DNA of 64,000 nucleotides from Neelides folsomi (Eukaryota > Arthropoda > Collembola > Neelipleona > Neelidae): NCBI GenBank assembly GCA_034687125.1, contig JAQGBZ010000038.1, positions 245,771 to 309,770 of the forward strand. Reading direction: 5' to 3'. Under the pieces are notes generated by a model. That model did no database searches. It saw only the letters and a program-made list of their open reading frames with translations, and had not been told where the DNA came from. Shown here in pieces: positions 10,145 through 59,267 of this stretch; within the stretch, counting starts at the first letter, position 1, and each line of letters starts with the position of its first letter. A program made the position numbers and the translations under genes.

Positions 10145-13570
<3,426 letters not shown>

Positions 13571-31627: not shown

Positions 31628-32857
31628 GATTGAGACTGAAGCCAGATATATAAAATAATTAATTTCTAAACGGCTCTAACATAGAGGATTGACACTGACT
31701 TGAGTAAGTAAAAGTTACACGAATTTTTACGTAATAACCGAACATTATGCATTATAGCAAGTTTAAAGACCATAAAGTTTATCTTAATGTGCTGATTTTT
31801 AGTGTACTTATGCATTTATATTAGGTATTGGTTTTTATACAAATGTCTTTAAACATTTATGGTAGATGGGTTTATAAATATAGAGAGCTTATCTTTTATG
31901 TATTTATTATTGTATAATGTTAATTATCACAACAATATATTAACTATCTTATGTTAAATGTTGATAGATTACTTATTAATATATTTATCAATCTCGTAAA
32001 TGCTAGAATATCAATTATGCGATATTGTATTGGTATTAATATTAACTTATAGTAGAACTATTGATAATATTATGTGTAGCATTTAATACATACGTAGTAT
32101 AAGGATAAAATATAAAATCTACGCTACGTAATCGACATAACTGTAACATAAGTGTATATTAGTATGTATACACTAAAGCATAATAACTATATTACACTTT
32201 ATCTTACTTATACATACTTATTATTTAATATAAAAGTATATTTATACTATTAATATTCAATCAACTTTAAATCTTTATTTATGAATAAAATTTCTCCAAC
32301 AAGAATACTACAACATTAAGGCGTATATTACTTAATAAGAAAGGCAAATTAACATGGGCAATTAAAACTGAATTATGTAAAAATGTAAATAAATGAACTA
32401 TAAATTATGACAATTGAATCGAAATGTTTAATTCAAAAAATATTTTTTTAAAAAACCTAACAGACACAACCACAATTCACCGCTCTCTTGTTTATTTTGT
32501 TCTCACTTGCATTGTATAGTAAATCATATTTTATTCAAAGTAATGAATTATTAATAACCGATATGTTATTTACATGTAATGGATTCTAAATAAGTTAGAA
32601 AGCAAAGAATGGACGCTAATTTGAAAATGTAAAGAAATAAAGTAAATTGGTTAAATAGCTTTTAATTTGGGCAAATAAACGTCAAGCTTCTCAGAAACAT
32701 AACTCTATAACATTAAGTGAGATGCAGGATGACTCAATTCTGTTTAATTTCTTAAAATTGTACCCAATTGATATAATTAATGTCTTTCAAAACGGTATAA
32801 ATACTCTCATAATTTCTCATTAAAATATGCAACAAGTTTGGAGTTTGATCATTAAAA
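31628..32857. other. Intergenic, no gene recognised
   Basis: Very AT-rich. The last 100 bases before 32858 are closely similar to those before 34058 (including a TTTCAAAAyGGTATAAATA box), so they are probably a duplicated promoter. Confidence 0.5.
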
Positions 32858-34807: not shown

Positions 34808-37800
34808 TCAAACTTCAAGGTTTTTGTGAACATTTCTAATTTTCCGAACATGTCTAAGAGCGCATTTGGCAGCTGTACATTTTGCAATTCGGTAATTTCT
34901 CCCAATCCCTCTGAAAGTTCCAATTCCAAAGATTTCCACGCTTACTCGAACTCTTCGACCATCCCAGAGTTTTTCCGGTTTCCCGAATTTAGCTGTTTCG
35001 GGTTCCATTTCCAGCAGTTCTCTTATTGGTGATTTGGGAACATTTTGGCTAAATTGTTCTGAAACCCCAATAGAAAATTTATTAAAACTAAACTAATTAC
35101 AATAATGATTTGAATATATTGATATAAATTAAATAAATGGAAATGGTATTTCTAAACAAAATATGGTTAAATAATTTAAAATCGTACCTATTTCCTTTTT
35201 CATTATTCTGTAATACACGTTCCATACAGCATCTAAAGACATTCCCGAGTCAAGGAAAATCGCCCCTGCCACAGATTCAAAAACATCACCAAGGGCCTTT
35301 GGCACTTCAATGTCTTCAGCCTCTTCGCATTCTTCTTCTCCCATTAAATAATACTATGAAAAAATAATCCAATAATTATTCAATTCGACCAAATAGTTTT
35401 AAGATATGTGGTATAAATTGAAAAATGTATTCGTACGTCTTGAGTAAGAGTGTGGCCATGTTGTTCTTGAAAGGTAACAAACTTTTGTAAAACAGTTGAA
35501 AGCCCCGGGGAAGAATGTCGAAAATATTTATGAAATTCATTTTTAACAGCCAGAGAAGCGAAGATTGTGTTATTTACAAGTGCGGATCTCAAATCAGTCA
35601 ATGAGCCAGGAGAATGTTGGAGAGGATCTTCGTAAAGATGGCGCGTAATGAGATAATCTAAACAAAAAATATTAAAAATAAAATTAACACAAAGCTTTAT
35701 ATTTATGAAATATTCTTAATGGAAAGGAATTCACCTAAAATTGCGTCTCCTAAAAATTCTAATCGCTGGTAACAATCCGTGAGATTATTTGTGGAATAAG
35801 AAGCGTGACTGAATGCTTGCAAAAGGTAACTCCGATCCACAAATTTGTAATTGATAGATTCTTCAAATATTTCATAACCCTAAAACATTTAAAAGATTAA
35901 ACCATTTATACCTCATTCACGGCGAATTTAGGCTTGATATTTAGAGGTCCTATCAAGTGCATTATTAAAATATTGTTGCTAACTGAAATGAGAATTTTAA
36001 TAATGCACTTATTGGGACTCACAAACCCAGGGGCTCGTTGCATCAGTCACTTTTTACTTTGAACTTTGAATATATTTGTATAAATCGTTGCATTTAGCGT
36101 TCTTACTATTACTTTGCAAACCTTGCTTTTTTACTTTTCAAATTCGGTGCAACGATTTATACAATTATTTGCAAAGTAACAAGTAACAAGTTAAAAGTGA
36201 CTGATGCAACGAGCCCCAGATTTTGCACTTTCAAACATTTCCTCAAATTTTATGGAAAAACTATCGAGAAAATTGAACTTTTTTAACTCTTTCAAATTAT
36301 TGTATTAATATTTAAAAACAATTTAACAACATAAATTATCTTGAGCTTTATTAATGTTTTTTAATCTCTTCTATTTCTGCATCATGTCTATATTATATAG
36401 GTACATTCGTTTGGTCTATATGTGATTCTTTAAGTATTAAATGAAATTATTATTTTACCACTAAATAAGTTTAAATGTAAGTGAAAGAGTGCTATTTTCG
36501 CCATAGTTTCTCCATAAATTTTGAGGAAATGTTTGAAGGTGCAAAATCTGGTTCGCTATCATCAATAATAGGGCCTCTATATCTCAAACCTAAATTCGTC
36601 GTGAATGAGGTATAGTAAATATTACCTATTTCATTTCAAATATTGCTTTAAATTTCAATCATTGGTAAACACTTTTAAAATTAATATTAAATAGTGGCTA
36701 CTTACTTTCAACAAAATTGAAAGCTGATTTTCCGAGTCTCTTCCATATCTCAAAAGTGGTGATTTGGGAGGTTGAAGTTTATGAAAGAGAATGAAATGGT
36801 TTGGATCTTGAAAAATGTCCATATAAAAACATTCCTCTGTTTTCTTCTTGGCTTCATTCAATTTATCCAATGCGACGATTTCACTCGGAAGAACTCTCAT
36901 TCCCAACCATGACATAAAGAGAAGGGCGCCAGTCGGACCAGTAGAAGTGAGATAAGCTCCAATGAGGGCCTCAACACAGTCAGCGATACTTTTATCAGGA
37001 ATCGATTGCTGAGTGACGAGATTGTAAGGAATGAATTCCGTGTCAAATTTATTCGTCGGATTTGATTTCAAAGCTTCTTCAATTTCCAAAAATGGAAGAT
37101 CTTTTAAAGCTCTAACTTGAGCCATTGAGAAATTCCCAGGAGGAACTTTGGATTGAATCAAAGCCTTGTCCAGATCTTTAGGAATGTGATAACAAGGTGG
37201 AAGCCAATTGTCATGAGGCTCAAATTTGGCAGAAACCATTAAACCGCCCAAACCTCGTCTTCGACCCAATCGATATAAATGAACATTGCTCACCTATTTA
37301 AAAATTATCATTAATCACTTTCTAAACATAATAAAAGAAATTAATAATGTCGTACTTAATTTAAAAAAATAAAATTAATTGGTTTAAGTTTACCTGCTTT
37401 GATCTCAAATGACTTAATTTTCCTTCATGAATATTCTCAAAAGTGCAAAAGAGATAAGAAGTGATGGCATATTTCAAAAAGGAATCTCCAATTGTTTCCA
37501 ATCTTTCCAAATTCAGCCCATCGTTTGCATTTGACATTGTCATAGCTTGAAGAATTAGACATGGACTTGGGCCGATGTGATTACTCAACTGGGGCTGGTG
37601 ATCAAAACTAAATGCTTTCTCCTCATTCGCATCAACTTCATTTAATGGTTCTTCGGAAGAAACATGAGGTGATTCAGTTAAAGATTTAAGTTGAGATGAA
37701 GCCATTGAAGAGTAAATTGTTAAAGGCTCAATTGGAGTCATAACTTTGAACAATGTTTCGTAATGGGGATTCGGAGGATCCAATTTGTCTTCATGATCGA

Positions 37801-40800
37801 TTGGTTCGATAATTTTCTTATTTCTAACCGGCAACTAAAATCAACAAAAGTGAAAGAATTCATTAAAAAGTCTACAATGAAGACTATTTATGTATATTAG
37901 TTAAAAAATAAAATTATTTTGGATATTTTTAATTACATTAATAATTTCCTCCCAACGAAGCGGCGTTTGAATTTCGCCAATTTTCTTTTGAACTCTCTTC
38001 TCAAACTCTCTCTTTAATTCTTCCTCATTTGCATCGTCTACCCACCAGAGATCCTCTGTATAATTCTCCTCTTCGGGTCGTTGATCGAAAGAAGAAGGGA
38101 ATTTCCTTTTATCCAGCGCTTCAGCCGTGTTTCCATTATGGAACTGAATTTTTAAATTATTTTCTTCGTCCAAAAACGATTCCTCAGATCCACCGCTCAT
38201 ATCGGAATTGATTGACATATTGTCTCCATCAAATATGTTCAATTCATCCATGTCATCAATAGCTCCAAATGCCTCTTGATCCCAAACTTCTCCCCAGTGG
38301 GTTGGGCTTCCATATAACGCTCGATGAACGCGGTGATTAAACCTAATAATAATAATTAATTTACAAAGAATTTACTAAATAAGTATTTTGAATATTTGTC
38401 CTGTCTTACAATCTTGATCTTCCTCCCCATGTCCAATTTTTATCCAACATCATAAGATTAGAAGGAAGAGCAACATTTGGATCCATCAATTCATCCTCAT
38501 CTTCGTCAAATTCGTCCACTTCAACTGCAGAATCCTCACAAGCATCTCCAGCCAAGTCATTCGTCCATGTTCCAATTTCAAGCGTCGGTGGTCGACATTT
38601 CTTCATTTTTTCACAAAGTATTTCATTCACGGATTTCCTAACAAATTATTATCAATGTTAACGATATTAAACAATCCAACGTTTTATGCATATTAATTAA
38701 AAGTCTTTTGAAAGCAATATGCAATAAACTTTCAATAATTTAATATTTAATGATTTACCCTCCCAATTTATCATTCAGAAGAAGAGATTCAGCTAATGTG
38801 ACCCCCAATGGAACTCCTTCTTTAGCTGCTTTTGCAAATCCGCTTTCTTCTTTTTTCGCTTCTCTTTTCTTCTCCTTTTCATCGAATTCGGCTTCATCGA
38901 GGTCTTCAATTTCTACTTTGTTCTCATCTATTATTTTCTCTTCCGCTTTCTTCTCTTCTTCTTTCTCATACGCCACAATTGGTTCTTCTACCAAATCATC
39001 CTCGCTTTTCTTCCCCTCCAAAATAACATCATTGAGGGACCATCCAAATGTCAAAGGTTCCCATTTAAAAGTCCCAGGGAGCGAAATAAGCCCAAGTGAA
39101 TGAACATGGGTTGCGACCATAGCTCTCACATTGTTGGCCAGTAACAGGGCATTAAGCCGGTAAAGAATACAAGGAAGTGAAACGGCTTGTCTCCACAATG
39201 AAGCTCTGAATGGATGAATGGCACAAAGCTCGGGAATAAGAATTTGCTTTTGTTCCAAATTCTCCCTCTTGGCCTTTTTAGTATTTTCTGAAGACGTTGG
39301 CAAAGCCATTCCTTTCCGATTTACATATCTTGGAGTGAGGAAATTAAGTCTGGCAGAAGTATGATCAACGTCCAGAAGAGGTTGAGAAGGATCAGCAATT
39401 TTAATATGATACTTTCTTTGGTAATATTCCTCAAATGTTTTAAATTCACAGCCTGGGAATTGGGAACGTGGAGTGAGTGAAGCACAAATCTCCGCCACGT
39501 AAAAATACTGTGGAATGTCGTTATTCCTATACCAAGGGCTCACCACCGCATCCTCATAATTCTCAACATTAAAGATGAAATTGGTTCGCTCATCGGAAGA
39601 CGTCTGAAGTCGGGGATCTATAGCTTTCCAAATAATGTCCATAAATTCCCAGTCCAACCGCGGAATTTCCATTTCATTAACAAACCCATTTTCCAATTTC
39701 CTTTTGAGTGGAACGACAAAATAACTATTTTCCGAAGCTTTTGGATCAAACAAGGTCAGATATTTGTCCAGCCGCAAGACTGAAGTGAATGAGTAATGGT
39801 GGAACGCTGAGATTTTTTCTAATTGAACGTCTGTGAGGGTTTCCTCACGGCTCAATGGAACCAACTCAACGAGAACTTCTCCACAACGGGTGTAAATTGG
39901 GAATGGCGGAGTTGGGGGAATTTCCTTTGAGAGAATGATCCCAAAGGATTGTCGAGCTTCTTGAGGAGGATGAATTCTTCTACCGCGGGTATTTTGCTCC
40001 TCTGGGATAGGCGTCACAAGAGTCATTTTAAGCCAATAGGTCCAAATTGTGGTGGCGGGTGAGGGCAAACAGGAGATTAATTGGGATGCCAATTGTTTAT
40101 CGTAATATTGCCGTCTTTTCGTACTTCCTGGGCGAAATTCTCCGATCTCTTCACGGTCTCCGAGATCCTCAACTACGAGATCGGGTTCTTGAGTTACGCC
40201 TTCTTTTCCAATTGGTAGAAGATCGTCGTCGATCTCTCCATTGCTGTGAAGGACAAGAACTGTTTGGAGAGCCACGGCCCGTTTTGCCAACACTTCTGAT
40301 GGCATTGGTACACCCTGGAAAATACAATGAAATGTTTAAAATTATAATTTGAACTTTGGATAAGTTAAAGACCTTAAAGATAGAATTGGTGAAAATTAAT
40401 GGAATTAATAAAATTGTTAAAATAAAATGCAACTTACGGAAATAGTCCATTTAACAGGAGAGTTAATTGGTAATCGCAATGAACACGTGTATCTTCTCTC
40501 GCATTCGTTTTCTCCCTTCTCATCGTCTTGGTCGTCGGCTGCAGCTTTCAATTCTATATTCCATATTGGGGCCAGACGAGTAAATGTGTCACTTGGGAGC
40601 CGAGCACAATAACGATTCACAATGGCGATCGCATTTGAGAGCGTTGCGGATTTGAATCTAGGAAATTGTGAGATCCAATCCCCTTCAATGAAATGAGGAC
40701 TTGGCCTTGGAATTATTGAATAGGATAAGAAAGTCTCTTCGACCAATTTATAAGTTGCAATTTGCTCAAGACAACGAGGAAGATCGGAATTGGAAGAAAA

Positions 40801-43750
40801 TATGTAAAACTCTCCTTCAAAACCCTGAGCTCGTCCTTTAGAAAATAAATAAGAACGGAAAGATTTGGAAGAGTCAAAGCGAATTACAAGATTCGGTTTG
40901 GGGAGTTCAATTCCGTCTTCAAGAAGGGAAGTTCCAAGTAACAAGTTGGCTTCACGATATCGAAACCGCCGAAGTGAATCTTCCCGTTTTTTGTGTTCCA
41001 TCTCAGCTTCTCTTGAGTCTTTGGAGTAGTCGGGATTTGAACAAATGGCGATCGTTGGATTGAGTCCTAATAGCCTCGGATCGTGATAAGCTGCTTCTTT
41101 TAAAAAGTGAAATCTGAAAGTTAAACATATTATTTAATATTAATTATTCAAATTATAAAGAGCCTCTTTCCATTAAATCCATTTCCCAAAAAATCTAATT
41201 GTACTTGTATTTATATGTAATTGCTGATTTGATTAATTTATCAAGATTTCAAGATAGATTAATAACAATGATTTCTGAATTAACGATTAATATGATTGAA
41301 AATTTTAATTACAATATTCGAGCATCAAATCTGTTTTCAAGAAGTACAATGCCACACAGAGCATTTTCATCCACTTTATTTCCAGATTTGGTTCTTCTGG
41401 GCGGTCGTTTAAAATTGTTGTCTTCAACCACTGCAGACTTCTCTTTGACAGATTTCCCAATTTCAAGAAACTTGACTTCCTTTTCCACGTCTTTCTTCTC
41501 TTCCAGTGGTTCATCAATCATATGCTTTTTTGCCTCCTCATTTTCAATAATTTGTAATTCGGGATTCGCATCTGATTTCTTCGCCTTTGTAAAACTTTTC
41601 TTATGCCCCTTTGCTTTCTTTTGTGAAACGTCAGTACTCGGTTTTTTATCTTCTTCTTCAGGATACGATGAAGGTTCTACTTTTTCAGTTAACTTTTCTG
41701 TATCATTTTCTTGAACTTTTTCATCTTTTATTTGGATCTCTGAATCTAAAATTTTTAAATTCTTTTCTTTTTGAGCAACGTCTTCACCTATTCCAACTTG
41801 TTGGTTATCTGGTTTTTGAAAATTTCTTCTGGCATCATATCTCTTTCTTCTGTTATTTCCATGCAATTTGTGCCCAAGCCCTTGCTTATGCTTTGCGATG
41901 ATTGGAGTTTCATTCTCTTCTTCGTCGTCCGGTTCCTCTATAGCTATGCTTTTCTCAAGCTGAGGCGTTTGAGTCATGTCGAATCGCCGAAGAATGCTCA
42001 ATACAGCTAGGAGTTTGGGGGTCGAGAATTTCTCAAGGCTTTCGAGAGCTGAAAATTTGGACATTCCATTGTAAAGCCTTTCTTGAGCCATGATTAGTCG
42101 CGTATGAAGAACTCCTAGTATTAGATAATGACGCTCATAGGGTGTTCGGACCTTAAAAACAAAAATAATTTTAATTCAATGAATGACTAAAGATGATCAA
42201 TATCTTTAAAAGTACATAGTTATTTTTATGAAAATAGAATAATTCTAAATACCCTAAGCTTTTCCACCATCTGAAGTAAAATTACGAGAGCTCTGGAAGC
42301 AGACCATGGACCAAATTGATCCAAAATCCATTCCAACCTCGAAATAATATTGAATGGTTCCAATTTGGGATTTGTAACTCGTTTAAGTTCCTCAGAAATG
42401 GTCTCCGATTCAATAATTTCTTCCACTGTAATAAGTCCCGCTTCGATTTGAAGTTGTATTTCATCATTAGTTAAACTCAGATTACTATCATCAACCCCAA
42501 AAAGTTCAATAGGATCATAAACATGATCGTTTAGAAAATCTTTAAGCTTCCCTAAGATGCATTTAACTTCCTGCTTGACTAAGAGTCCTTCTGGAGATAT
42601 GAGATCCTGTTCAAATTGAACAATTCTTTCGGAGGGAATCGTAGAATACCTGAAATTAATACCAAAAATATGAACATTTCGATAAAACTTAATAATTATA
42701 ATGAGTAATACCTAGTCGAGTATTATATAACGATATGAAATAATTTTAATTTTAATTTTATTTTGAGAGTTACCGTAAAAGGGCAAGGGTATCACTTGAT
42801 GTGTCAACTTTTGCTCCGCACAAATATTCTAATTTTTTAAAGGTTCTTTCCATTCTCCAAAACCCAGAAGATTGGTTCCCATAATATTGAAGAAGCGATA
42901 CGGTTAGGCAAACTAGCCGAATCTGAGTTGACGGATTTTTCTTTACGTTTAACATTCTAGAAAATAAAATATTTTTCATCAATAATTAAAATGTCTATGT
43001 AGTAATATCGTGTATTCAATGGTATATTGTTAATATTGTTATAAAAAGTTATAATAGAATTTTATAAAAACCTAATAGTTTTGAAAATTTCTCGAAGCTC
43101 TTCTTTAACATGAGTGTTAATTAAGGCCTCTTGTACATTGTCAATGACTAGAAGAACAAGAGATTTCGCCATTTCCTCCTTCTTTGTCCCATTAAGCAGC
43201 TGAAGGAACTTTTTCCGACTACAGAAAATAACGGATGAAGGAGTGAGAGAGAAATCCTCAGTGTCTTCATTATCCAAATAAATAGTTTGAATGGATGAGA
43301 GAGAGTCTAAAGAGATGTAACTCGGAGATTGTAATTTCTTCAAAAGGTCGGCTCCTTCTTTGGATTTCTTCACATCTTCGTCTTCTGGATCCTCGTCCAT
43401 TTCACTGGATAATTTTGGTTCATTCTTAGCCACAGCTTCCTTTTTCTGAGAATCGTGGATGAAGACACAAATTCCATTTGTTCTGAATAAATTTATAATT
43501 ATGATATATGATATACGAGCCGATAATAAATAATTACTGTTATATTGGATTTTTTTTAATTATGTGCTTTAGAAATATTATCTTACTTGTAATAAAATTC
43601 TTTGAATAGCATGAAAGAAAGAAATTGTTTGGCGTGAGGAGGAAGACAACAAGCCACCACATTGTTGTGCTTTGCAGTCTCAAGCACTTCAACGGGGAAT
43701 TCTTGTGGAGTGAAAAATTCGGAATGAACATCAACGTTGTAATAAGACAT
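34808..43750 (-). CDS. Dicer-1-like ribonuclease III
   Basis: Cuts pre-miRNA hairpins. Fifteen exons (43587-43750, 43072-43482, 42774-42956, 42253-42649, 41313-42151, 40438-41113, 38759-40314, 38410-38637, 37937-38342, 37394-37834, 36706-37293, 35735-35879, 35437-35657, 35188-35353, 34808-35058) join in phase to 2223 residues, the usual Dicer-1 size. Domain order: N-terminal helicase-like region, helicase C part ([11 protein letters not shown]), DUF283 dimerisation fold, platform-PAZ ([20 protein letters not shown] and [24 protein letters not shown], given here as [17 protein letters not shown]), RNase IIIa ([29 protein letters not shown]), RNase IIIb ([34 protein letters not shown]) and a C-terminal dsRBD. 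The RNase III acids are all present. The helicase lacks its ATPase motifs: the Walker A site reads LPPHAKQF, and the DECH box is IDNV. That fits Dicer-1 of insects, where ATP use is lost. A long Glu/Lys-rich insert lies at about residues 430-650. Intron 11 (35880-36705) contains nested inverted repeats. Confidence 0.95.
35904..36618. mobile_element. Nested inverted-repeat elements in Dicer intron 11
   Basis: Outer arms 35904-35952 and 36569-36618 are inverted copies (core ACCTCATTCACGRCGAATTTAG). A second pair, 36217-36266 and 36500-36550, is also inverted (core CAAACATTTCCTCAAA). Inside the left half sits a smaller element, 36030-36217, with perfect 21-bp inverted ends (GGGGCTCGTTGCATCAGTCA...). 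It is flanked by CAG on both sides, which would fit a 3-bp target duplication as made by PIF/Harbinger elements. All are non-coding. This looks like a MITE inserted into an older palindromic element. Confidence 0.8.
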
Positions 43751-45495
43751 GACAAAATGTATTTGATCAAATGGGCTTAAATATCACAAATTATTAATTT
43801 ATATGATAGGCGTTTGAGCTATTGGAATGGAATTAGCTTATATAAACAAACAAACGCAAAGTTTCAATATTCTGATATATCGTATGGATTTTGATACTAA
43901 AATAATATTTTACTATAATGTGAAAATCTTAATTAATTTATTGAATACACGAATACTATTTTATAATCCATAAAAAATGACTGTGAGTTTGTGTTTTGTG
44001 GGATGGGATGAGCCGATGATGGGAATATATTTGGTTTGGGAATTTTGGGAATAATTCAATTTTAAGCTATCAATGGAGCGCGGTTAAAGTACGACGGTTA
44101 ATGTGATGATTTTGTTTATTTCGCATAATACCCTGAAGGCTGCATAAGTAACTGCATATCCTTATATCCATCTCGTATATCTACTTATTGTTAAGCAGTG
44201 CAGTGTAAAGAACTAAAAATATGATGTAAAATATATTGAAGTCAAATAACATATTATAGATACTAGGTATACATTATGTACCATACCATACAAACATAAT
44301 ATAGTAGGATTTTTATCAACAATCCAACTTAAATTAAACCAAATTGAAGTTTGATTTAATTTATATAAAATAAATAATATTTATTACTTTCTCGAGAATG
44401 AGTTAATATTATATTAATTTAAACTTTAATTTATGCTTTGGCATAATTTTTCATTCAGAAAATATTATGTGCATTTTTAAGGTGATACTCAAGGATTAAT
44501 AACGTTAATGGTTGGCACAAATGAAGAATATGAATTTGTAAATAACTTCTGCCTAATAATGATAATCATTACTTTATATTACATTTTATTGCTACCAATT
44601 AATAAGAGGAATATTTTAAATCTGCACAATTTTTATCATACACACCTGCCTATCTTTGTTTACGATAAATGTATATATGACTTTTTTTATCAATTTATTA
44701 CTTAAAAATTTCCAATAAATGTCCATCATTTGAAAAGCATAATGTGATATGTGATAGATAGGTGGACGTTATCTCATTTTTTACCGATTACAATATTCCC
44801 AAAGGTCATTCTAACAGGCTCAAATGTTTAATTAGTGAGAAATGTATAATATACATAATTCTTAACGTTTATTCAGTTAATTTTTCAAAGTTGCCTACCT
44901 ATATAAAACTTCAAACTTGAAGCAGGACATGTTATCGTATGTTTATTATAGTTTTACTGAATAATTATCCCAGTTATATAAAATAGCACTAGTTTCATAT
45001 ACTTGTAAATCATAGATAATATGTATGAGCGTATAATATATATGTTTGCGTTTATTCTATTCACAATTCATTCATATGGTTCAATAGCTTAATTTTACAA
45101 CTTATTTTATACTTACTGTAATACTTGATCGTAAAAAGATGGAAATAAGTAATAGGCAATAGAATAGATATTGCATATTTGAAGCTAATCTTGACCATTT
45201 GTACCTTACTTTTTATCAATTATCATTATCTCCTCTCAAGTCTCAAAAGTTATTATTCAGAATGAGAGCGTTTATGTTTATCCCTCCAGTCACTTCAGTT
45301 CCTCTTGTGTTCCGCTTTATACGCTCTTCATTCTCTTATCACATTTGTGTATTTAATTTGATATTTAATTTGATATATTATAATACTTTAAGCAGTGCAA
45401 TTCCTAATGTTCAAATTTATTTTAACTATTCCTCATGTAAATTCTCCTTTAAGTTGAAATTCTCGTAGTTCAATACCGTTTTAAATGAAAAGAAA
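43751..45495. other. Intergenic, no gene recognised
   Basis: Presumed Dicer promoter just above 43751, then AT-rich DNA. An open frame at 44508-44705 (+) is AT-driven and has no features of a protein gene. Confidence 0.45.
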
Positions 45496-46304
45496 ATGTT
45501 TTCTTTGGGTGAAAATGCAGAATACCTCATAACAAGACCAGGTCTTTTCAAGATTTTAACAATTGTAAGTTGAATCAAAATATTTTGAATCGACTCCAAC
45601 TCTAATTGATCTGATTCTTAATAAAAGGTCTTAGGAGCCGTTGTGGTTGGTCTTGCCACAGAAGGAATCATTGAGTTTAAAGACTCAGGATCGGACCTAA
45701 CCGTCAAAGAAACATTTCTTCTCATCTCGTCAATAGTATCTCTCTCCCTTTCTATTCTTTATCTAATTGCTCATGCTGTCAGCGACGATCTCACAATAAA
45801 CAGATTTAACAGAATTTTTGTAAGTATTATTAAAATACCTACTTATACTTTGTACTAATTCACAGCAATTACCAATCATAATTTATCTTTTCATAATTTT
45901 TTCTTATACTCATGTGCTGATAAAAAATATTTGTGTAGGATTCTTACTTTCACGGAATAATTGGAGTTGTATTGATTGTCGGAGGAATTTTGATGCTCCT
46001 TTCTGGAATCACGACAAAGAAAGAATCATGTGGGAAAGTCAATTTAGGATTTGGTGACATTTGTGCAACGTACGAAGAGAAACTTTCTTCTGGGGTAAGT
46101 TTTTATTAAAAATTCTATTATTTCCAATTTCCAATTTAATCAACTTTATATTATTAAATAACGATTGAGTTATTTAGTGATTCATGAATCATGGTCATTT
46201 ATTGATAAAATCATTTATGCTTAATTATGCAGATACTTGGGATTGCAAACGGATGCATGTACATTGCAACTGGAGTCATTGTTCAAACATCTAAAATTGA
46301 ATAG
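45496..46304 (+). CDS. Small four-helix membrane protein (MARVEL-like topology)
   Basis: Four exons in phase from ATG 45496 to TAG 46304 give about 160 residues. Seen: a short N-terminus (MFSLGENAEYLITRPGLFK), then four hydrophobic segments at about residues 20-38, 60-80, 97-117 and 140-155, with a short extracellular or lumenal loop containing two Cys (SCGKVNLGFGDIC) between helices 3 and 4. This spacing and length resemble MARVEL-type four-helix proteins found in membrane apposition sites and vesicles. No family motif is clear enough to name it. The exon ends coincide with helix boundaries. An earlier ATG at 45485 is in another frame and closes after fifteen codons, so it is a short upstream frame. 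Confidence 0.72.
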
Positions 46305-47160
46305 CGATATGTTTTTATCATGCGTGATGTGATTGTGATTACAAATAGAAACTACTGTGTACCTTATTCTTATACCTAAATTATATTAAATACAATTAAC
46401 TATCATTTCTTTTACATATAATTACAACAATTGTTTGTCATAAAGTCATAATTAATGTTCTTGTATAATTTATATAACCCACCTAACTTTAGATATTTAT
46501 TTACTTGTGAAGCACACTGTAAATTATTCAAATACTAGTGAAAAAATAAAAGTATTAATTTTTAATTAACGTTCAATATTGGTAAAGGTAATTAATCCTA
46601 GCTCCTGCAATAAGTTTTTGGCTCAATATTTTAGAAAGCTTCAAATACATAAGTTGTTCAGATTTGGATGATTGAAGCATATCGGAAGTTGATTTGTTTT
46701 AAGTTTTTCATTACCTCAAAAAAACTGTTAATGTTTTTAAAACTTTTAGCTCCTAAAACTCGGAATCTATAGCCTTTTTCATATAAGTTTATATACCAGT
46801 TCAATCCGAAATGGCATTTTATTTTGATATCGGGTTGTGCTTTTTTGAATAAACACCTTGTTTAAAAGATATTAACGAATATTAAGTATTGGTCTTGTAA
46901 TTAGTTTTATTAGTGACATTTCAAAGATATTGAAATTTGCCCAAATTCAATAATTCCTTTAGAAACGATAATATGGGGCATGGAGCTAAGATTATTGCTC
47001 CTAATGATCGTTTTTATTTTTTGGAATTATTTGTTTATTTTAATTGTTTGATTTCATTTTGAATAATTAAATATGTTACATTAGGTGTAATTCATCGAAG
47101 TATTGGTTTCTACAGTATTGGGGCTTAAACTACAAATTCAAAGATATCCTCATTACATCA
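46305..47160. other. Intergenic, no gene recognised
   Basis: AT-rich, non-coding in all frames as far as can be judged. It leads directly into the inverted-repeat element at 47161. Confidence 0.45.
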
Positions 47161-47689
47161 CTATAGTCCATTCACTCTGAATAAAATCGCCAAACCGAAA
47201 GTGGCGCCTAAATATTTCCACCGTTACCTATTAGACAAAATGTTATCAATAATTGTAGTAAATCGAAGATTAATGATTCACATATTTCCATTTTCAATTT
47301 TCATATTCCTTTTTCGATTAATAATAAAACTTAAAAATGGTGTATTATAAAAAACAAAGAATTCATTACTTGAAGAGCAAAGAAGAGGAACTTGTGAAAA
47401 CAGTGCATGCAAATTTGAAAATTCTTAGTAGCAATAAAGATAACTTTATTTTGTTTAAAGGAAGATGATTCCGATATTGACTAAAAATATTACTTTAGAA
47501 TCGTTATAATTTACGCAAAATCCTTTAATTGTTTTTATCATAATTGATTCAGTGTTTTAATTATAATAAAATTTATTACATATATGCTATAATACAACTA
47601 TGATTAACATATATTCTAATACGTAACGGTGGAAATATTTAGGCGCCACTTTCGGTTTGACGATTTTATTCAGAGTGAATGGACTATAG
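47161..47689. mobile_element. MITE with near-perfect 66-bp terminal inverted repeats
   Basis: Arm 47161-47226 begins CTATAGTCCATTCACTCTGA and ends CCACCGTTA; arm 47624-47689 is its reverse complement with a single mismatch. The 400-bp interior is AT-rich and has no transposase. The ends could include a TA target duplication (CTATAG at both outer edges), as in Tc1/mariner-type insertions. High arm identity suggests a young insertion. Confidence 0.88.
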
Positions 47690-48195
47690 TTTGACATTAT
47701 TTTATAGATGCTAGAATGGTTAGTCGGAAATATTTTTCAATTTTTGGTTAATTCAATGCTGCTTTTAAGTAATTGTGATTAAACGTTCATTGATACTTGA
47801 TACCTCTTGGCTCATCTTTTCTCTCTAAAACAAAGTTTTCTTATAGCAGTCTGAAAGCAGCGAATCTTTACTTCACTCCCAAGCCAAGGTCCCAAGTTCA
47901 ACGACCTTTCCAGCTTTCTCTTTCATTATTTTCACTTGGTCCTTGGTTCTCTGGATCCTCTGTCTAGCAGTCCTTCGAACTTTGGTTCACAATCCATTTT
48001 AACTTCTCTTTGTTCAATATCACTCTTCGTTGCAATTACAACAAGGCAAGCTACTTAATTGACAATTAAATCCTCATTATATTTATTTTTCAGTGGTATT
48101 GATCGAAAATAAGACAATTCTTTCACATTTGATTTACTTTTCGCAAGAGCAATTGACATTGAGTTGATTAATTTGATTTCCTTTCAGGCTGAGTC
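47690..48195. other. Promoter / 5' UTR region of the AT-hook gene
   Basis: 47850-48050 is GC-richer, pyrimidine-biased and probably transcribed. TTTCAG at 48182-48187 is a good acceptor eight bases before the start codon, so a 5' UTR intron is likely. Confidence 0.4.
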
Positions 48196-49186
48196 ATGGC
48201 CATGTCACCAACAATCTTGATGGACCAAGTCATCTTCATGCCTTATTTTGACGAGATAAAGGAGGAGTCAAACAATGAAATTGTTGGACAGGAAGGCGAA
48301 GCCAATCTGGTCCAAACCATTCAAGTCCAAGATCTTCAACCTGAGATCGACCCTTTTGGGTCCATCCAAGGATTTGACACGGTCTTGCATTTTGTCAAGG
48401 AGGAAGGAGGGATCAACGTTGAGGATTTCAACTTTGACACTATGACCGAACTTGATGAGCCGGATGATGAGAGAGATGAAGATTTTCGAGTAATTCATTT
48501 GTTTCCTCTTCTAGAGTTTAATTGTCTATATATGAGTTTAAGTATTTATAATTCAATTTATTATATTGCCACTGCCATACATTTCCAAAAATAATAATCT
48601 TCAAACAAATAATTTATGCATTGGCTTTCAGCTTGAAGATCACGAGCAAAATCTTGAATCTGATCAGGATGATCTGGACGAAGATTTCATGAATACGCCA
48701 GTGAGGTCATCAGGAAATCGAAGGGGACGCGGGCGACCCCCGAAATATCTCAACTCTCGAGACCGCTTGTCACTCAGGCAAAAGGTTGAAAAGAAGCCCA
48801 AGAAATGGACCCGGGCAAGTGGAACGAGAAGAAGGTCAATCAAGGAGGCCGCTGTGAACAAAGCGTGAGTTGTAAAATAATATAATTTAACATTAAAATT
48901 CGCATAAGGTCTGTCTATTTAAGATTCAGATACAAATTATGATTCTGTTCTGATTATTATGGTTTATAGATTCACAAATGAAATCTATACTGGGCCGCAT
49001 GAACATCCATCTCACGAATACATGTATGAGTTTGCTATGAATTTCTATAATGATCCAGCAATTGATTCGTTCTCGGGACTCAATCTTTATCGCCAGGACT
49101 TGAGCCAGTTTCCATTCATTGGAATGGTGGTTGAAAAACCTGAATCTGAGGTAGAAGAGGTCGAGGATACTGAGCAAAATCCATAA
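48196..49186 (+). CDS. Acidic nuclear protein with an AT-hook
   Basis: Three exons in phase: 48196 to about 48491, about 48632-48865, and about 48969-49186, giving about 250 residues. Seen: an acidic N-terminal half with hydrophobic-acidic clusters such as LMDQVIFMPYFDEIKEE and VEDFNFDTMTELDEPDDERDED, of the kind seen in activation domains. Next come NRRGRGRPPKY, an AT-hook that binds the minor groove of AT-rich DNA, and a basic stretch (KKPKKWTRASGTRRR). A C-terminal part rich in aromatic and acidic residues follows (ending EVEEVEDTEQNP). Inferred: a chromatin or transcription factor. No other domain was recognised and it cannot be assigned to a named family. The start at 48196 is followed by a second in-frame ATG two codons on. 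Confidence 0.72.
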
Positions 49187-50314
49187 ACGTTAAGTTATGA
49201 CATTGCGTAAAAATCATGTATTTAAATTAAGTGTTATGTAATTGGAATTACTCATCAAAATATTTAATATGTAACAATATATTATTCTTGTTAGCCTTTC
49301 CATTATAAATAGATAGTTGATTTCAATTATGGAAATTTAATTAGAATTTAAAAATTATATGTTTTGGAAATTACTCTTAAATTTTGACAAAATTGTTGGT
49401 TCATGTTTAGGATACTTCTACTATAAGTTTATGTAATGAGTTAATGAGATTAATAATTCATTAATGTAATGCTGAAAAATATGAACAATAAATTAAATTA
49501 ATATGCTTAATATTAATAAGAACCCTTGATGTAAATATAAAGACCAGTATACAAATGTAAATCTTGTAATTTTATTTAAACATTATTTTAGTATAATAAT
49601 TGTCAATGGTAAGGTTAAGTTTATACAATTATGAGAATTATGATAATCAGATAATTAAGTTCGTAATTGTTTATTACCTTTAGTCTATTGTAAGTTGTAA
49701 CTATTAGTCTAAAATAAATGACTAATTGAACTTTATAAAGTTAATAATGTAAGTAAACAACAACATGTCAAATAGTTATAACTTATTCTATTTGAGCAAT
49801 TATAATATAATTAACGCCGGGTTTTGAAAACTACAACAATGCTAATGTGATGTCTGTGGCATAGTTGCATAATACGCAATTAATGGAATGACCAGTGAAG
49901 TAATTAAGAATATGATAACTATAAGGAGTGTAATTACCATTGTCATATTCTTATTTACATACAAATATTTACAATGTATTTGTTCATTATTTACAATTTA
50001 TTTACGATTAGCTCAAAAGAGTGCAAATGGTTTTTGAATTAGATAGTAAGAAGATATTTATTATGTGAATTGGGTTAAATCCAGTCTGCTTGAATTTATT
50101 CTAGTTTAACATCTTACTAATTTGCCAGATATGACAAAAGAGTTTTTAAGTCATAACTCTGACCCTTAATACTTAATACATATAACAATCTTTATCTAAT
50201 ACCTCTTATTGTCAATCAGTCAGTCGTAAAAGTTCATAGCGATGTTATTCAAATTTTTGAGCATTTCTTTTTAGTCATTTACAGATTTTAGTAAAATTTT
50301 CAAAATATTTTAAC
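49187..50314. other. Intergenic, no gene recognised
   Basis: AT-rich spacer. AATAAA words near 49486 may serve the AT-hook gene. The last 150 bases probably carry the 5' UTR of the pump gene. Confidence 0.45.
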
Positions 50315-53300
50315 ATGGAGCAACAAGCAAACGATAAGCTTCAAGACGTTGAGGTGAGTCAATTTTTTTACATTTTAGGGTTAACTTTACGTTTATTGGG
50401 TTAATATTTTAATTTATAAGCATACCTATGAGCTTGTAATCAAAATATGAACGAAATGATTTCCACTTTTGTTAAAAATTCTAGTATAATGAAATGAGAG
50501 GAATAGGAAAATCAGAAGGTTAACTTTTATGTATTGTGAAACATTTGATAACAAGTGTTTTAATATAGGTTTAAGTATAATATGTATAATGTCATTTGTT
50601 TGCATTGTTTGCATTGTTTGTAAATTGTTTGTGCCTTTACTGATATTTACATAAATATTCGAATGAGTAACATACCTACCATATACCTTTGTATAAAATA
50701 TAATATGTACCACAAATATGGAATTTATAAACAAAAAACCAATGAGTCAAAAAACTTCCCTACTCTAAGAAAGATTATAAGAACTACTGATACTGATAGT
50801 CATTTCAATTACAAACCTTTGGTATTTTAAGAATCTCTCATCTTATTTCCTTTTTTTCGTTGTATTTTAGCTTTCTTCAATGAAAAAATTTGAACATAAA
50901 TCTAAAGGCTCAATCAAAGAGTTTGAGGAAGAAGAATTTGTTGATCATAGAATTGATCTCAATGATCTATACTTTAAATATACGACTAATCCACGAACGG
51001 TAACAAAATATCAATGCCTATTCAATATGTAAATATTTTATTTGTAATTACGACTAATCCTTTACATTACATTTGTAATCACATAAAATGTACTATACCT
51101 TACTTATAAACTTAATTATTTCATACGTTATACATTTTTAAATGATTTTAGGGATTGGGGGCTACACAAGTTTTACTAAATCGGATCAAATTCGGCGAAA
51201 ACGTTCTTAAACCTTCCAAAAAGCAATCCGCAATTTTGAAGATTCTAAGAGCCATTTTCCTAGGGCTCAACTTGCTTCTTTGGATTTGTGCACTTTTATC
51301 TTTTTCCTCATACGCCTCACAATTTTTGTATTCTGATGACATTGCACAAGACAATGTAAATTTTGTTAATTTAAGATACCTAAACATCACGAACAATTCT
51401 CATTCTACAATTTTATTTATTATGACTTTTATTTATTTAACCAATAGCTGTATTTGGGAGTCGCCCTCGTGTTTGTTACAATTCTCTCCGGATTATTCAG
51501 TTACTACCAAGAGTTCAAGTCGAACAGAATTATGGAATCTTTTAAAAATCTTATTCCTCATAAAACCCTTGTGGTTCGGGACGATCGTGTTGAAGATATC
51601 CTCGTTTCGGATATCGTCGTTGGCGACATTGTTCATCTCAAATACGGAGATTTGATTCCCGCAGATGTGAGAATCATCGAATCGCAAAACTTTGAAGTGG
51701 ACAATTCCTGTTTGACTGGAGAATCAGCCGCACAAAAAAGATCCCCTGAATTGGGCCAGGGTCCGAATGAACCTTATATCACAGCAAAAAATCTTGGATT
51801 TTTCTCAACATGTGCCATTGAAGGAACAGCCAAATGCATTGTCATTCGTGTGGGTTCGGAGACCTTAATGGGCAAAGTTGCCAATTTGGCTTCAAACGTG
51901 GAAAGTCGGAAATCCCCAATTGGGATTGAAATGGATCGGTTCATCGTGATAATGACTGTCAGGAGTCTCATTTTTGGAATAACGTTTTTAAGTGTGGCGT
52001 TGCTCATGAAGTACAGCGTGATCGATAGTACTTTCTTCGTCATTGGAATCATCGTTGCGAATATTCCAGAAGGATTGGCCGTTTCTTTCACACTCATCCT
52101 TGCCGTCACTGCTAAGAAAATGGCTGTCAAGTTTTGTTTGGTCAAGAATCTTCAATCTGTGGAAACCTTAGGGTCGACCAGCGTCATTTGCTCGGACAAA
52201 ACTGGAACTTTGACACAAAATAAAATGAGCGTGGCCCATTTGTACTTTAATGGGAGAATCGCTGAGGCTGACACTTCTGAATTTAAAACTGGATCAACTT
52301 TTAATTTGAGTGATGAAGGATTTGAACAACTTTTCAAAGTGGCAGTTCTTTCCTCAAATGCTAAATTTAAACCTGGCCAAGAAAACATTCCTGTTTTGAA
52401 ACGGTAATCAATAAATAGGTTTAAAATATATCGGCAACTACAAATCTTCTTTCTTTTAAATGAATATATTTCATATAAAAAATTAGAGCTGTGGAAGGAG
52501 ACGCTTCGGAATCGGCCATCTTGAAATGTATGGAGCTTCAATATCCAAAAGTAGAAAAATTTAAAAAGAACTTTAATAAAGTGTTTGAAATTCCTTTCAA
52601 TTCACGCGATAAGTTCAGTGCATGCATTTATGAGGACGAAGACGGCTATTTTGCTGTGATGAAAGTAATAAATGAATCAATTTTTAATTGACCAATGACA
52701 ATAAAGATAAGTTCTAAACTTAACATTAATAATGTTTTATCTTATTCAAAGGGTGCTCCAGAAAAAATTGTAGCAAAATGTGAAACAATTTTGATCAAAG
52801 AACGAGAACATGTTTTTGATAAGGATTGGCGTCACAAGTTCGACATGGTTTATGTTACGCTTGGGGGACATGGGGAAAGAGTTTTAGGTAAACATTTATT
52901 TAAATGTAAAGAAATTTTTTATCGAATAGTTAATAAGTTAAATAAGTCTTTTGTTAATTGTTTTTACCTAATTGTTTTTTAGGTTTTTGTGATAAAAGAC
53001 TTGACCCCAACGACTTTCCACAGGATTACAAATTTTCCGAAATTCATCCAGACGAACTTCTCTCAAACCTCCGTTTTGTTGGTTTGATCTCTTTAATTGA
53101 TCCTCCACGTGCAGCCGTTCCAGACGCTGTTTCAAAATGCCGCACGGCTGGAATAAAAGTTGTAATGGTCACCGGAGATCACCCATTGACAGCCAAAGCA
53201 ATTGCTCGCTCCGTGGGAATTATTTCAAAGGGGAATCACACAATCGAGGAAATTGCAGAAAGAATGAACAAACCCATTGAATCAATTGATCCCTTTACAC

Positions 53301-54876
53301 TCTCTGCGGCTGTCATTACCGGAGCTGAATTAAATCTCCTTACTCAAGTAGAACTGGAAATCTTTCTATGCAACCACGAGGAAATTGTTTTTGCTCGGAC
53401 GAGTCCAGAACAAAAATTTAAGATTGTGGAAGCATTTCAAAACTTGGGTTACATTGTAGCCGCGACTGGGGACGGAGTCAACGACACCCCTGCATTAAAG
53501 AAAGCCGATATTGGGATCGCAATGGGAATTTCTGGGACGGAAGTGGCCAAGGAATCGGCCGATATGGTTTTAATGGACGATGACTTTTCCTCGATCATCA
53601 CTGGCATCGAGGAAGGGCGGCGGATTTTCGACAATTTGAAAAAACTCCTTTGTTACAGCTTGGCGGACAACATTGCTGAAATGTACAGTGTTTGGGTTTT
53701 CATAATTTTAAGGATTCCTCTCCCAATGGGAACTATTGCCATGTTGTTGAGCGTTTTGGCCACTGACACTTTTCCAGCCGTGAGCATCGCTTATGAAACT
53801 GCAGAAAAGGATATTTTAAAACTTCAGCCCAGAGATCCAGTTCATGACAATTTGGTCACTAAAGAGTAAGATTAATTGCTGTTTAATTAAATAATACTAA
53901 TTAATTTAAAGAGTTATTATAAAGATTATAAACTTGCAAGATACATATTTTTAGTATTTGTGTATCAACATTTTTTCTTCATAGGCTTCTTTCGTATGCA
54001 TATGGCCAAACGTCAGTTTTTGAAGTGGCCGCTGGATTCTTTGCATATTTCTTAACATTGGGCTACAATGGTTTCTTACCGGATCGGATTATTGGATGCA
54101 GATTAGTATGGGAATCAAATGCTGTTAATGATATGACGGATTCTTATGGACAAGAATGGGTATAGAGATCATTTATACTTTCACACATAATGAAAATAAT
54201 CATCCAATATATAAAATAAAATTCCAATTTCATAATTTTGAATTCTTTCTTGTTTTCAATTATAGACCTATCAAGCTCGACAAGATTTGGGCTATACGGC
54301 TCAAACCGCTTTTTTCATTGCAATTGTTGTGATGCAAGTATCAAATGTGATTATTTGTAAAACAAGGAGACTTTCTTTGTTTCAAAAAGGAATGAGGTTT
54401 GAAAATAGAAATCACAATTTTTTATCTTATTTACCACTAATAATATTTTTGTATTTGTTTAATTACAGCGGTAAAAGATAAACTTAATAACTCTATTGTG
54501 ATTAGTACATAATATTGTATAATATTTAAAACTTTTGTTTTTAGGAATGCATGGATGAACATTGGAATCATATTCGAGCTTTGTTTGGCTGCCGCCTTGA
54601 TTTACACTCCTGTAGTGAACGGCTGGCTCAATTTTAAGCCAATTAAGTAAATACTGAATTAGATAAAACTCCTTTCTCAAAAAAATAAAACTCTAAAATA
54701 AAACTTTACATATAAAAGTACATAGCTTCATATTATTAATTCCAATTAATTTCAGTTATGAATGCTGGCTTGCTCCAATACCATTTGCCTTATTTTTAAT
54801 TTGCTACGATGAACTACGAAAATTTGCGATTCGAAATACGTCAAGCGGATTTTTTCATAATGAGCTATATGCATAA
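50315..54876 (+). CDS. Na+/K+-ATPase alpha-like P-type pump with altered cation-site residues
   Basis: P-type ATPase that would move cations across the plasma membrane with ATP. Eleven exons (50315-50353, 50871-50999, 51152-51355, 51448-52403, 52487-52664, 52752-52887, 52983-53865, 53985-54159, 54266-54396, 54545-54646, 54756-54876) give 1017 residues, normal for an alpha subunit. Seen: TGES actuator loop, phosphorylation site ICSDKTGTLTQNKM (Asp374), GDASESA and KGAPEK in the nucleotide domain, MVTGDHP and TGDGVND hinge motifs, ten membrane helices and a C-terminal YDELRKFAIR. M4 keeps PEGL (Glu332). Odd: M5 reads YSLADNIAE where the family has YTLTSNIPE, so Ser becomes Asp776. M6 reads LSVLATD where the family has CIDLGTD, so the first site Asp becomes Val805. 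M8 reads QVSN instead of QWAD (Asn927), and M9 FEL instead of FEE. The gene is otherwise intact. Inferred: a diverged paralogue with changed ion binding or stoichiometry. Confidence 0.93.
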
Positions 54877-55690
54877 AACACGAAGAATTGTATCTAATTG
54901 TATTAAACTAACAATTAATAATAGTGTTAAATTGTAGCAAATGAATTGCATATATTTTCTAGTATGTGTTAAGTTATGGTTTAAAGTTGTTGTTAATTAA
55001 ATAATAATTCAACTAAAGGACTGAATGAGATTTGGCAGAAAAATGGGCTGAAATTAACCTTGTTAAAATTTAACGATAAACTCCGATTTAAATAAAATCC
55101 TTTTACTTTAATGATCATATATACATTAAGCATATGATACATAATTTTCAGAGTGCTAACATGCTTTAAAGTCTGGAAATAATTTAATCCGCAAGGGTCA
55201 TTATTGCATTCAAATGCATGGAGAACTTGCATAGCCTTCCATAAAAATAAACAATATCTCCATTTTCATATAGTTTAAACATTGTATTAATAGGTTAAAC
55301 GGTTTTCTTTCAAAATATGATGAATACAAAATGCTAACCTGACCCTTTAATATGTAATTAGTTAAATAGTTTAATGACAGTTAAATAAGTGTAATTAAAT
55401 TGTTTAAAAGGTATTTGAAAATAAAAATATGCTTAGGAACATAAAATTAAACAATCTCTCAGTTTTACAATTCAAAAGAATTCCAAGATTTGATTTTCTA
55501 TTTGAATTCATTCTTTTCTCTTTTGGACAATGTCAATCAGATACTGTTCGTTGTGCCCTCATCAGCGCATCAAGTCTTCAAGTAGGGTTCATAGACTTAA
55601 TAATGTCATTTACATTCAAGTTGATTATTATTTCAATTTGCACAATAGGGAAGTAAATAGGAAAGTCGAGATCTGTAAAACATGTTTCAT
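54877..55690. other. Intergenic, no firm gene
   Basis: AT-rich. Two open frames between 55430 and 55840 (+) overlap and lack clear features, although one (LKRLSSKPGKTIYFSNSDHL, about 55705-55765) might be an upstream exon of the following fragment. Confidence 0.35.
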
Positions 55691-55862
55691 TTTCTTTTCA
55701 ATAAGTTTAAAGCGTTTATCAAGCAAACCTGGAAAGACAATCTACTTCTCCAACTCGGACCATTTGGTAATTAATAGTATTTGTATAATTGCTTTTGTAT
55801 GTACAATATGCCATTATCTCATTACATATTATCAAAAATAAATATATTTTAATTGCTTTAGG

Positions 55863-56323
55863 CTCAACAAAGGAATCATCGTTGAAAAAGAAATGTCCTT
55901 CAAATAAAATAGTAAACAACGTGGTAAATAATATTAAATATAATTAATTCAAGAAATGATCAAAATTCAAAGCTCAATGTTTAAATATTCAACTAATGAT
56001 TTAATTTTAGCCGCAAGTCATTGATGAAAGCTCTGAAATCAACACTTCACAAAATCCTAAGGAGTTGGAAATTAGGATTGCTAGTCTGAGGGAACAATTG
56101 AGAGAATGCATGTGCATTAAACCGCGGAAAACTGGATATGAAGCAATCAATCATTACTACTGCACCTGTAAGAATGGATGTCGGACACTGGGGACCTGCT
56201 CTCACGTTGCATCCTTGGTTCTCTACCTCGGACATTACCGTAACAATCTTCATCTTTTAAAAAAGAAATGTCCTACGCTTTCGGTGATGAAAATTCTCAA
56301 CGCAGCCACGTTTACACCAGGTA
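55863..56323 (+). pseudogene. Cysteine-rich SWIM-like tail of a transposase-type protein (fragment)
   Basis: Seen: after a probable intron, a frame opens with PQVIDESSEINTSQ, then KELEIRIASLREQLRECMCI (short coiled coil) and YYCTCKNGCRTLGTCSHVAS, LVLYLGHYRNN. C-x-C-x3-C...C-x-H is a SWIM-like zinc-binding pattern. The motif with a following 'LVLYLG' helix is common at the C-terminus of large transposase-like proteins in invertebrate genomes. The frame ends at a donor-like GGTATT near 56323; no further exon or upstream catalytic core was found. Inferred: remnant of a transposon gene. A functional host gene with very distant exons is possible. Confidence 0.5.
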
Positions 56324-58516: not shown

Positions 58517-59267
58517 TTAACAATTAAACTTGAAAGATTTGATCCAACCTGGTAAAATTTCATATGCTGTAATATTATGATATCCTTCTCCAATCCCGTT
58601 TAAATTGGGTTCGAAACAAAACGAATTCCCTTCATAATTCGTTTGATCATAAAAGGCTACAGACTGAGATCCTGTTATGATGAATGAGTTGAACACAAAG
58701 TTCATATTAGGAGCTTCTCTGTCGAAGGTAAGAAAATCACTCTTGAACCCAAGATCTGAATAAACATTCAATGTCGGCTTTTTGATGTCTTGGGCGTCCC
58801 CAGAAAATCTTACTGATTGAATTAAACCACGAACTGATGGGATGAATGCAAAACACGAATTTTCTCCGCTCGCCCACGTCAAATACTGTCCAACTCCAAT
58901 GTAGTCAATATTCATGTAAAATATCCATCTAAATCACACAATTCAAATGGTTTAAAATTTAAGTTATAATAAATAAAAACTAAACATATATTCCAATTTT
59001 AAGTGTAATTTATAACTTATAACATTTAATGTTTTTTTTTCAAAAATATTATGCATATTACGTTCCACTAATACAAAATGATGAAACTCCTTTGAGATCA
59101 ATGAAGCGTGTCAAATCCCGTTGAGACAATTGTGTTTTAATTGTAAAACTAGAATTTTCATCCCATTTGTCTCCATTAAAGAGAGTTATTGAGGGGATTG
59201 TTTGTGTGATGGCAAAACGCTCAGTACAAATGAGGAAAAAATAAGCACAAATAATTTTTTTATACAT
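58517..59267 (-). CDS. Secreted beta/gamma-crystallin-like protein
   Basis: Two exons (59062-59267, 58517-58928) give 205 residues. Seen: a signal peptide (about residues 1-22, MYKKIICAYFFLICTERFA), then alternating hydrophobic/polar strands. The repeated signature is an aromatic-rich Greek-key strand ending in a Cys: SSFCISGTWIFYMNIDYIG, and the better one VAFYDQTNYEGNSFCFEPN followed by YEILPGWIKSFKF. 'FYD..NYEG....F' plus 'SI/SF-F' at the end is the pattern of beta/gamma-crystallin motifs. Known: such proteins often bind Ca2+ or act as secreted structural or defence proteins; several arthropods carry small secreted ones. Inferred: an extracellular one- or two-domain crystallin-type protein. 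The calcium-binding NN-S-S motifs are not evident. Confidence 0.68.

Follow-up and report, generated by a model that had tools for sequence, protein, structure and literature searches.

A divergent Na,K-ATPase-like alpha-subunit gene with altered cation-site residues in the collembolan Neelides folsomi

What does a sodium-pump alpha subunit do when several of the membrane residues that hold Na+ and K+ have been replaced and its catalytic residues have been kept? The question is raised by a gene on contig JAQGBZ010000038.1 of Neelides folsomi, contained in the 64,000-nucleotide stretch of DNA that was analysed here as a whole (the window). The gene comprises 11 exons, with GT-AG borders at 10 of 10 introns and a coding sequence of 3054 nt, and its reading frame of 1017 codons holds no internal stop and no frameshift, which bears out the original prediction of an intact gene. 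Its features are given below; here and throughout, residue numbers are those of pig alpha1 unless window numbering is stated.

50315-54876, plus strand: gene for a divergent P2C alpha subunit like that of the Na,K-ATPase; 11 exons, 1017 aa (gene model, TIGR01106, Pfam)
50315-50353, plus strand: exon 1, with the start codon (gene model)
50871-50999, plus strand: exon 2 (gene model)
51152-51355, plus strand: exon 3, M1 (gene model, membrane segments)
51448-52403, plus strand: exon 4, M2 to N domain (gene model, residue table)
52069-52071, plus strand: codon of M4 Glu332 in exon 4, which also encodes DKTGT with Asp374, both in window numbering (residue table)
52487-52664, plus strand: exon 5 (gene model)
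52752-52887, plus strand: exon 6 (gene model)
52983-53865, plus strand: exon 7, P domain, M5 and M6 (gene model)
53663-53668, plus strand: M5 codons Ala775 and Asp776, window numbering (pig T774, S775; residue table)
53753-53755, plus strand: M6 codon Val805, window numbering (pig D804; residue table)
53985-54159, plus strand: exon 8, M7 and the SYGQ beta-binding motif (gene model, residue table)
54266-54396, plus strand: exon 9, M8 (gene model)
54338-54346, plus strand: M8 codons Val925, Ser926 and Asn927, window numbering (pig W924, A925, D926; residue table)
54545-54646, plus strand: exon 10, M9; window Glu955 at 54576-54578 is pig Glu954, kept (gene model, residue table)
54756-54876, plus strand: exon 11, M10, C terminus NELYA and stop (gene model)

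Regarding the family, the protein scores 1271.2 bits over residues 31-1016 against TIGR01106 (P2C ATPase alpha subunit; cutoff 946.1), and the Pfam models E1-E2_ATPase, Cation_ATPase_C, Cation_ATPase, Hydrolase and Cation_ATPase_N all exceed their own cutoffs. Among the best 60 of 139 PDB matches, the first is Artemia alpha2KK (1076 bits), with Na,K-ATPase (NKA) alpha chains at 1040-1067 bits, an H,K-ATPase cluster, some chains of which are labelled Na/K, at 991-1014 bits, and calcium pumps at 344 bits or less. In alignment rows cut at the C terminus, the window protein shares 49-50% identity with pig alpha1, human alpha3 and Artemia alpha2KK, as compared to 70-88% among these three; to pig alpha1, Artemia alpha2KK is 70% and the window protein 49% identical. 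In a seven-row tree without NAK2 or CG3701 rows, the window protein joins the NKAs at an open fork on a long branch; the tree drew long-branch warnings, its terminal branches measuring 0.96 changes per column for the window protein and 0.23 for Artemia alpha2KK. Three rows of this tree were bacterial P-type ATPases, taken from seven loci on genome contigs, six of which served to gauge the breadth of conservation; the seventh, L006, was left out, since no plus-strand ORF carrying the phosphorylation motif was longer than 500 aa. Another P-type class is represented by L004, L005 and L007, three of the six, as they have Cys at position 327. No relative of the window protein was confirmed in viral contigs, searched both with the single protein and with the alignment. 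When Artemia was set against the two vertebrate chains, 42 residues proved to be as in Artemia, 52 as in vertebrates and 102 as in neither, which gives no guide to an arthropod origin of the gene.

In arthropods, a NAK1 class and a faster-evolving NAK2 class have been described, with CG3701 on a divergent branch of its own (Lind 2013, PMC3793950; published work is represented here by excerpts of each paper). NAK2-class genes and CG3701, compared by description only, are like the window gene divergent, long-branch alpha paralogs outside the NAK1 clade, and the best reading of the sequence is that the gene would be a fast-evolving paralog of this known kind. In the B. improvisus protein aligned there, whose paralog class the passage leaves unspecified, the residues of the K+ sites are reported as conserved (PMC3793950), whereas they are changed in the window gene. 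In FlyAtlas, CG3701 gives a signal of 69 in testis, as compared to 8 in the whole fly and 1-4 in each of the nine further tissues of the table (PMC3734111). Arthropod NAK1 genes have a 27-aa N-terminal exon with DSYR as well as tandem, mutually exclusive exon copies. DSYR occurs in no frame of the window gene region (positions 44000-56000) and no tandem exon copies were found in the window, so the gene is not NAK1-like and NAK1 identity was rejected.

Indeed, tblastn with the protein itself (E <= 1) returned no other copy of the gene or of its exons in the window, all 10 pieces being intragenic, and SNIPE, DLGTD, QWAD and FEET are absent from every frame of the window, whose one NIPE lies in M4; hence no alternative exon restoring these motifs was found in the window, and the case that the original prediction had set against itself, splice forms bringing back TSNIPE, IDLGTD and QWAD, finds no such exon there. 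Since the canonical Na,K-ATPase is an essential pump, we assume that the animal also has a canonical alpha gene. Among the Pfam matches of 19 different ORF segments, covering part of the window, there is no beta-subunit domain, and no Rfam match in the window reaches the gathering threshold. A Dicer gene neighbours the locus on the opposite strand (one segment; 475 bits to Drosophila Dcr-1 and 379 to human Dicer), and it is this gene that points to a probable arthropod as the source of the DNA.

Turning to the cation sites, the residue table confirms the substitutions that had been read in M5, M6 and M8, namely S775D (window Asp776, GAC at 53666-53668), D804V (window Val805, GTT at 53753-53755) and D926N (window Asn927, AAT at 54344-54346). 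Together with T774A, which replaces a side-chain ligand of Na+ site III, the invariant Na,K-ATPase ligands T774, S775, D804 and D926 have become A, D, V and N. Further changes around the sites are V325I, as well as T772S, P778A, I803S, G806A, W924V and A925S; these last six had not figured in the original prediction, nor had T774A, N790R, which brings an arginine to M5 at its outer end, or the C-terminal end, which reads NELYA where canonical alpha subunits have KETYY. The five residues that had been listed as remaining are all there (E327, N776, E779, D808 and Q923, that is 332, 777, 780, 809 and 924 in the window protein), and V322, A323, Y771, T807 and E954 are also unchanged. The last of these is at odds with the Glu-to-Leu change proposed for M9, which proved to be an alignment slip: pig FGLFEETALAAF pairs without a gap with window IGIIFELCLAAA, so that the single M9 Glu of the window protein (955) is pig Glu954, linked to site III and kept, and it is Glu953 that has become Phe. 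Outside the pocket, catalytic motifs had been reported as present, and the six catalytic residues checked (D369, K501, T610, D710, D714 and K719) are unchanged in 6 of 6 cases; the SYGQ motif by which the M7-M8 loop contacts the beta subunit is present as DSYGQEW, and mean hydropathy is near that of pig alpha1 in all 10 membrane segments. Unchanged too are Q111, N122 and T797, which have a part in cardiotonic-steroid binding.

Altered sites of this kind could be mimicked by a decaying gene or by assembly error, and the long end branch as well as the fact that D804V and D926N each lie one base off an Asp codon are in favor of this explanation. However, the change from Ser to Asp at 775 takes at least two base changes whichever Ser codon is considered, which excludes a single miscall for that codon; moreover, the frame is open over its full length with regular introns, the catalytic core is kept, and the chance of meeting zero stops over 518 replaced codons is 1.6e-11, a crude value that assumes random replacement. 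Decay or misassembly is hence very improbable. Of note, A-to-I editing could in principle turn window Asn927 (AAT) into Asp; window Val805 (GTT) is out of its reach.

Constraint is unevenly distributed along the protein. While 49 of the 54 positions common to the three NKAs and the six bacterial P-type ATPases are kept, this is the case for 351 of the 577 positions whose invariance is confined to the three NKAs (Fisher p = 2.9e-6), indicating that the catalytic core is held and that NKA-specific features drift. There is no excess of change at the cation ligands, with 5 of 12 ligand positions changed versus 226 of 619 other NKA-invariant positions (Fisher p = 0.77), which argues against a specially rewired pocket and for a drift like that of the rest of the protein. 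The pocket changes are still worthy of attention, since over the 13 ligand positions compared in the three NKAs the only departure is the Lys of Artemia at 776. Equal drift of pocket and bulk would also fit a relaxed constraint on transport, a reading absent from the original prediction.

Such background drift is what one would expect of a non-transporting alpha paralog which phosphorylates, or acts in scaffolding or signalling as suggested for C. elegans CATP-1, and whose pocket drifts freely. Bulky neutral residues at 775 are known to yield an enzyme that phosphorylates and is otherwise inactive, uncoupling phosphorylation from transport (PMC10812997), and CATP-1 has been reported with possible pump-independent functions, although in another setting its pump activity is likely critical (PMC11631496). 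We nevertheless regard the loss of transport as rather unlikely: a pure scaffold would have no need of the P-type-wide positions that are kept, the M4 site, N776, E779 and D808 are retained, and Asp is not bulky, the Na,K-ATPase being active with Asn, a residue of like size, at this position (S777N in rat numbering; PMC10812997).

Which sites could then still operate? According to published work, Na+ site III consists of T774, S775, D808, Q923 and D926 with the M5 backbone, in agreement with the role in the third Na+ site that had been ascribed to the M8 Asp, and it depends on W924, whose hydrogen-bond network takes in Glu954 and Tyr771 (PMC9463140). In human ATP1A3, D923N (equivalent to D926N) reduces the affinity for Na+ by a factor of more than 100 and is associated with rapid-onset dystonia parkinsonism (PMC9463140), and D801V (equivalent to D804V) is a disease mutation of alternating hemiplegia (PMC8503543). 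The window protein has the identical changes at the same positions; in humans, however, they are single disease alleles of a canonical pump, whereas here both occur together and with S775D. From T774A, S775D, W924V and D926N combined, Na+ site III is very probably gone; T774A and W924V, at positions that the same work ties to this site, strengthen the case beyond the D926N of the original prediction. In Na+ site II, D804 is the sole ligand outside M4 (PMC10812997) and is now Val, so that this site is predicted to be weakened. A conventional 3:2 Na/K pump, with all sites working through compensating changes, could rely on the retained E327, N776, E779, D808, Q923, Y771, T807 and E954, and S775D could stand in for the charge of D804; but D926N and W924V each affect site III by the work cited above (PMC9463140), and T774A takes away one of its ligands, making full compensation improbable.

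Comparison with pumps of unusual stoichiometry is informative in this respect. Artemia franciscana alpha2KK (PDB 8k1l) is, like the window protein, a P2C pump of an arthropod in which the sites have been altered, and it has the same Phe at 953. It differs by its lysines at M4 324 and M5 776, where the window protein has Asn in both cases (N329 and N777 in window numbering), and by keeping S775, D804, W924 and D926, all four of which are changed here. The original prediction had likened the gene to the lysine-bearing Artemia alpha; the window protein has no such lysine, and an alpha2KK type was rejected for want of Lys at 324 or 776. The initial claim of altered cation sites stands for S775D, D804V and D926N, and falls for the M9 Glu.

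At 778, the non-gastric H,K-ATPase (ATP12A; PDB 7x20) has Ala as well, and at 924 its residue is likewise aliphatic (its A797 and I943). These likenesses would be in line with a proton/K+ exchanger arisen independently of vertebrate H/K-ATPases, in which site III is destroyed and the acid at 775 is the proton site; strict H+ selectivity has indeed been predicted to require destroying both site III and site I (PMC9463140). Yet the non-gastric enzyme has Lys775, Arg930 and Gln954, as opposed to Asp775, Cys930 and Glu954 in the window protein, and it keeps the acids at 804 and 926, both lost here; in addition, among the best 60 of 139 PDB matches, the Na,K chains (1040-1076 bits) outscore the H,K cluster. 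Proton exchange therefore appears quite improbable. As to H,K-ATPase identity proper, it was rejected since neither Lys775 nor Arg930, as judged against the non-gastric sequence, is present.

With site III very probably lost, site I presumably rebuilt and site II deprived of D804, fewer ions per cycle become probable, and the analogy with H/K-ATPases, with the C930R mutant (2 Na:2 K; PMC10812997) and with Artemia alpha2KK (2 Na:1 K, quoted in PMC10812997) makes it reasonable to infer an altered stoichiometry or an electroneutral exchange; C930R and Artemia alpha2KK are cases in which a pump goes on running after the loss of one site. Our preferred reading, held tentatively and with a probability of about 0.45, is a pump that carries one or two ions in each direction and generates little current, if any. 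In this proposed mechanism, a fast-evolving Na,K-ATPase alpha paralog of the NAK2 or CG3701 kind would retain its pairing with a beta subunit, as the SYGQ contact suggests, and would still run its phosphorylation cycle. T774A, W924V and D926N would remove or destabilise site III. Site I would be rebuilt, the M6 carboxylate of D804 being replaced by the new M5 carboxylate of S775D beside the retained N776 and D808, and site II would keep its M4 half (E327 and backbone ligands, V325I falling where the ligand is backbone) and lose its only partner outside M4. Per ATP, one or two cations would be exported and one or two K+ imported, with a weak current or none. A carboxylate at 775 could be tolerated, judging from the active Asn mutant and from the non-gastric H,K-ATPase K794E, described as electrogenic, to a lesser extent (PMC9463140).

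Several observations weigh against this favored reading. Ligand positions are no more changed than other NKA-invariant ones, so that plain relaxed constraint fits too; the human equivalent of D804V causes disease; bulky neutral substitutions at 775 give phosphorylating but inactive enzymes; N790R adds a positive residue at the outer end of M5; and the window protein sits on a long branch, with an open fork to the NKAs. A more specific version, in which the ion count is lowered by deletion of acids, not by a Lys or Arg tether, site III is dismantled and the shared M6 carboxylate has moved to M5 Asp775, is conceivable and more doubtful still. By our own count, the pocket of the window protein would contain five acids (E327, D775, E779, D808 and E954), against six in Na,K-ATPase. 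The passage from which the figure of six is taken gives the number without names (PMC5233988). No description of this residue set was found in the literature searched, largely with queries other than residue names.

Taken together, the gene probably encodes a catalytically competent paralog that either moves fewer ions per cycle or has another job. If it pumps, it would offer a natural test of the residues that set the stoichiometry of the sodium pump, bringing together two human disease substitutions and a possible compensating acid. If the acid-deletion reading is true, pumps would moreover have arrived at electroneutral exchange or a reduced stoichiometry in a third way, next to those of the H/K-ATPase and of Artemia alpha2KK, in a protein that unites D804V and D926N, both of them disease mutations in humans. 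Should the window protein not pump, it would be an alpha paralog whose catalytic core is kept and whose canonical transport is gone. Either outcome would inform on the evolution of pump stoichiometry and on the roles of the divergent alpha paralogs of arthropods.

Alongside the pump gene, the divergent Na,K-ATPase-like alpha-subunit gene, the window carries the following features:

11687-12118 (+), glycosyl hydrolase family 47 gene fragment (95.7 bits)
31313-31675 (-), partial MOSC N-terminal domain (scoring 28.8 bits against a cutoff of 25)
36658-41133 (-), Dicer gene, on the strand opposite to the pump gene, with helicase C, Dicer dimerisation, platform, PAZ and RNase III segments
58520-58933 (-), open frame of 138 aa
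62379-62756 (-), Glutathione S-transferase C-terminal domain exon

Regarding the Dicer gene, a search with its platform-PAZ segment returned Drosophila Dcr-1 as the top PDB match. Open frames extending as far as 43559 matched none of the Pfam models and could be either part of this gene or separate from it. The 138-aa open frame had no match among the Pfam models either; it may resemble a beta/gamma-crystallin-like protein.

In the pump gene, arginines are found in two membrane segments, at the outer end of M5 (N790R, pig alpha1 numbering; region 53666-53755, +) and in M3, in place of pig Val291. Regarding its altered cation sites, A-to-I editing could not convert Val805 (GTT) in M6 to Asp. 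Asn927 in M8 is encoded by AAT (54344-54346, +), a codon that such editing could cause to be read as Asp.
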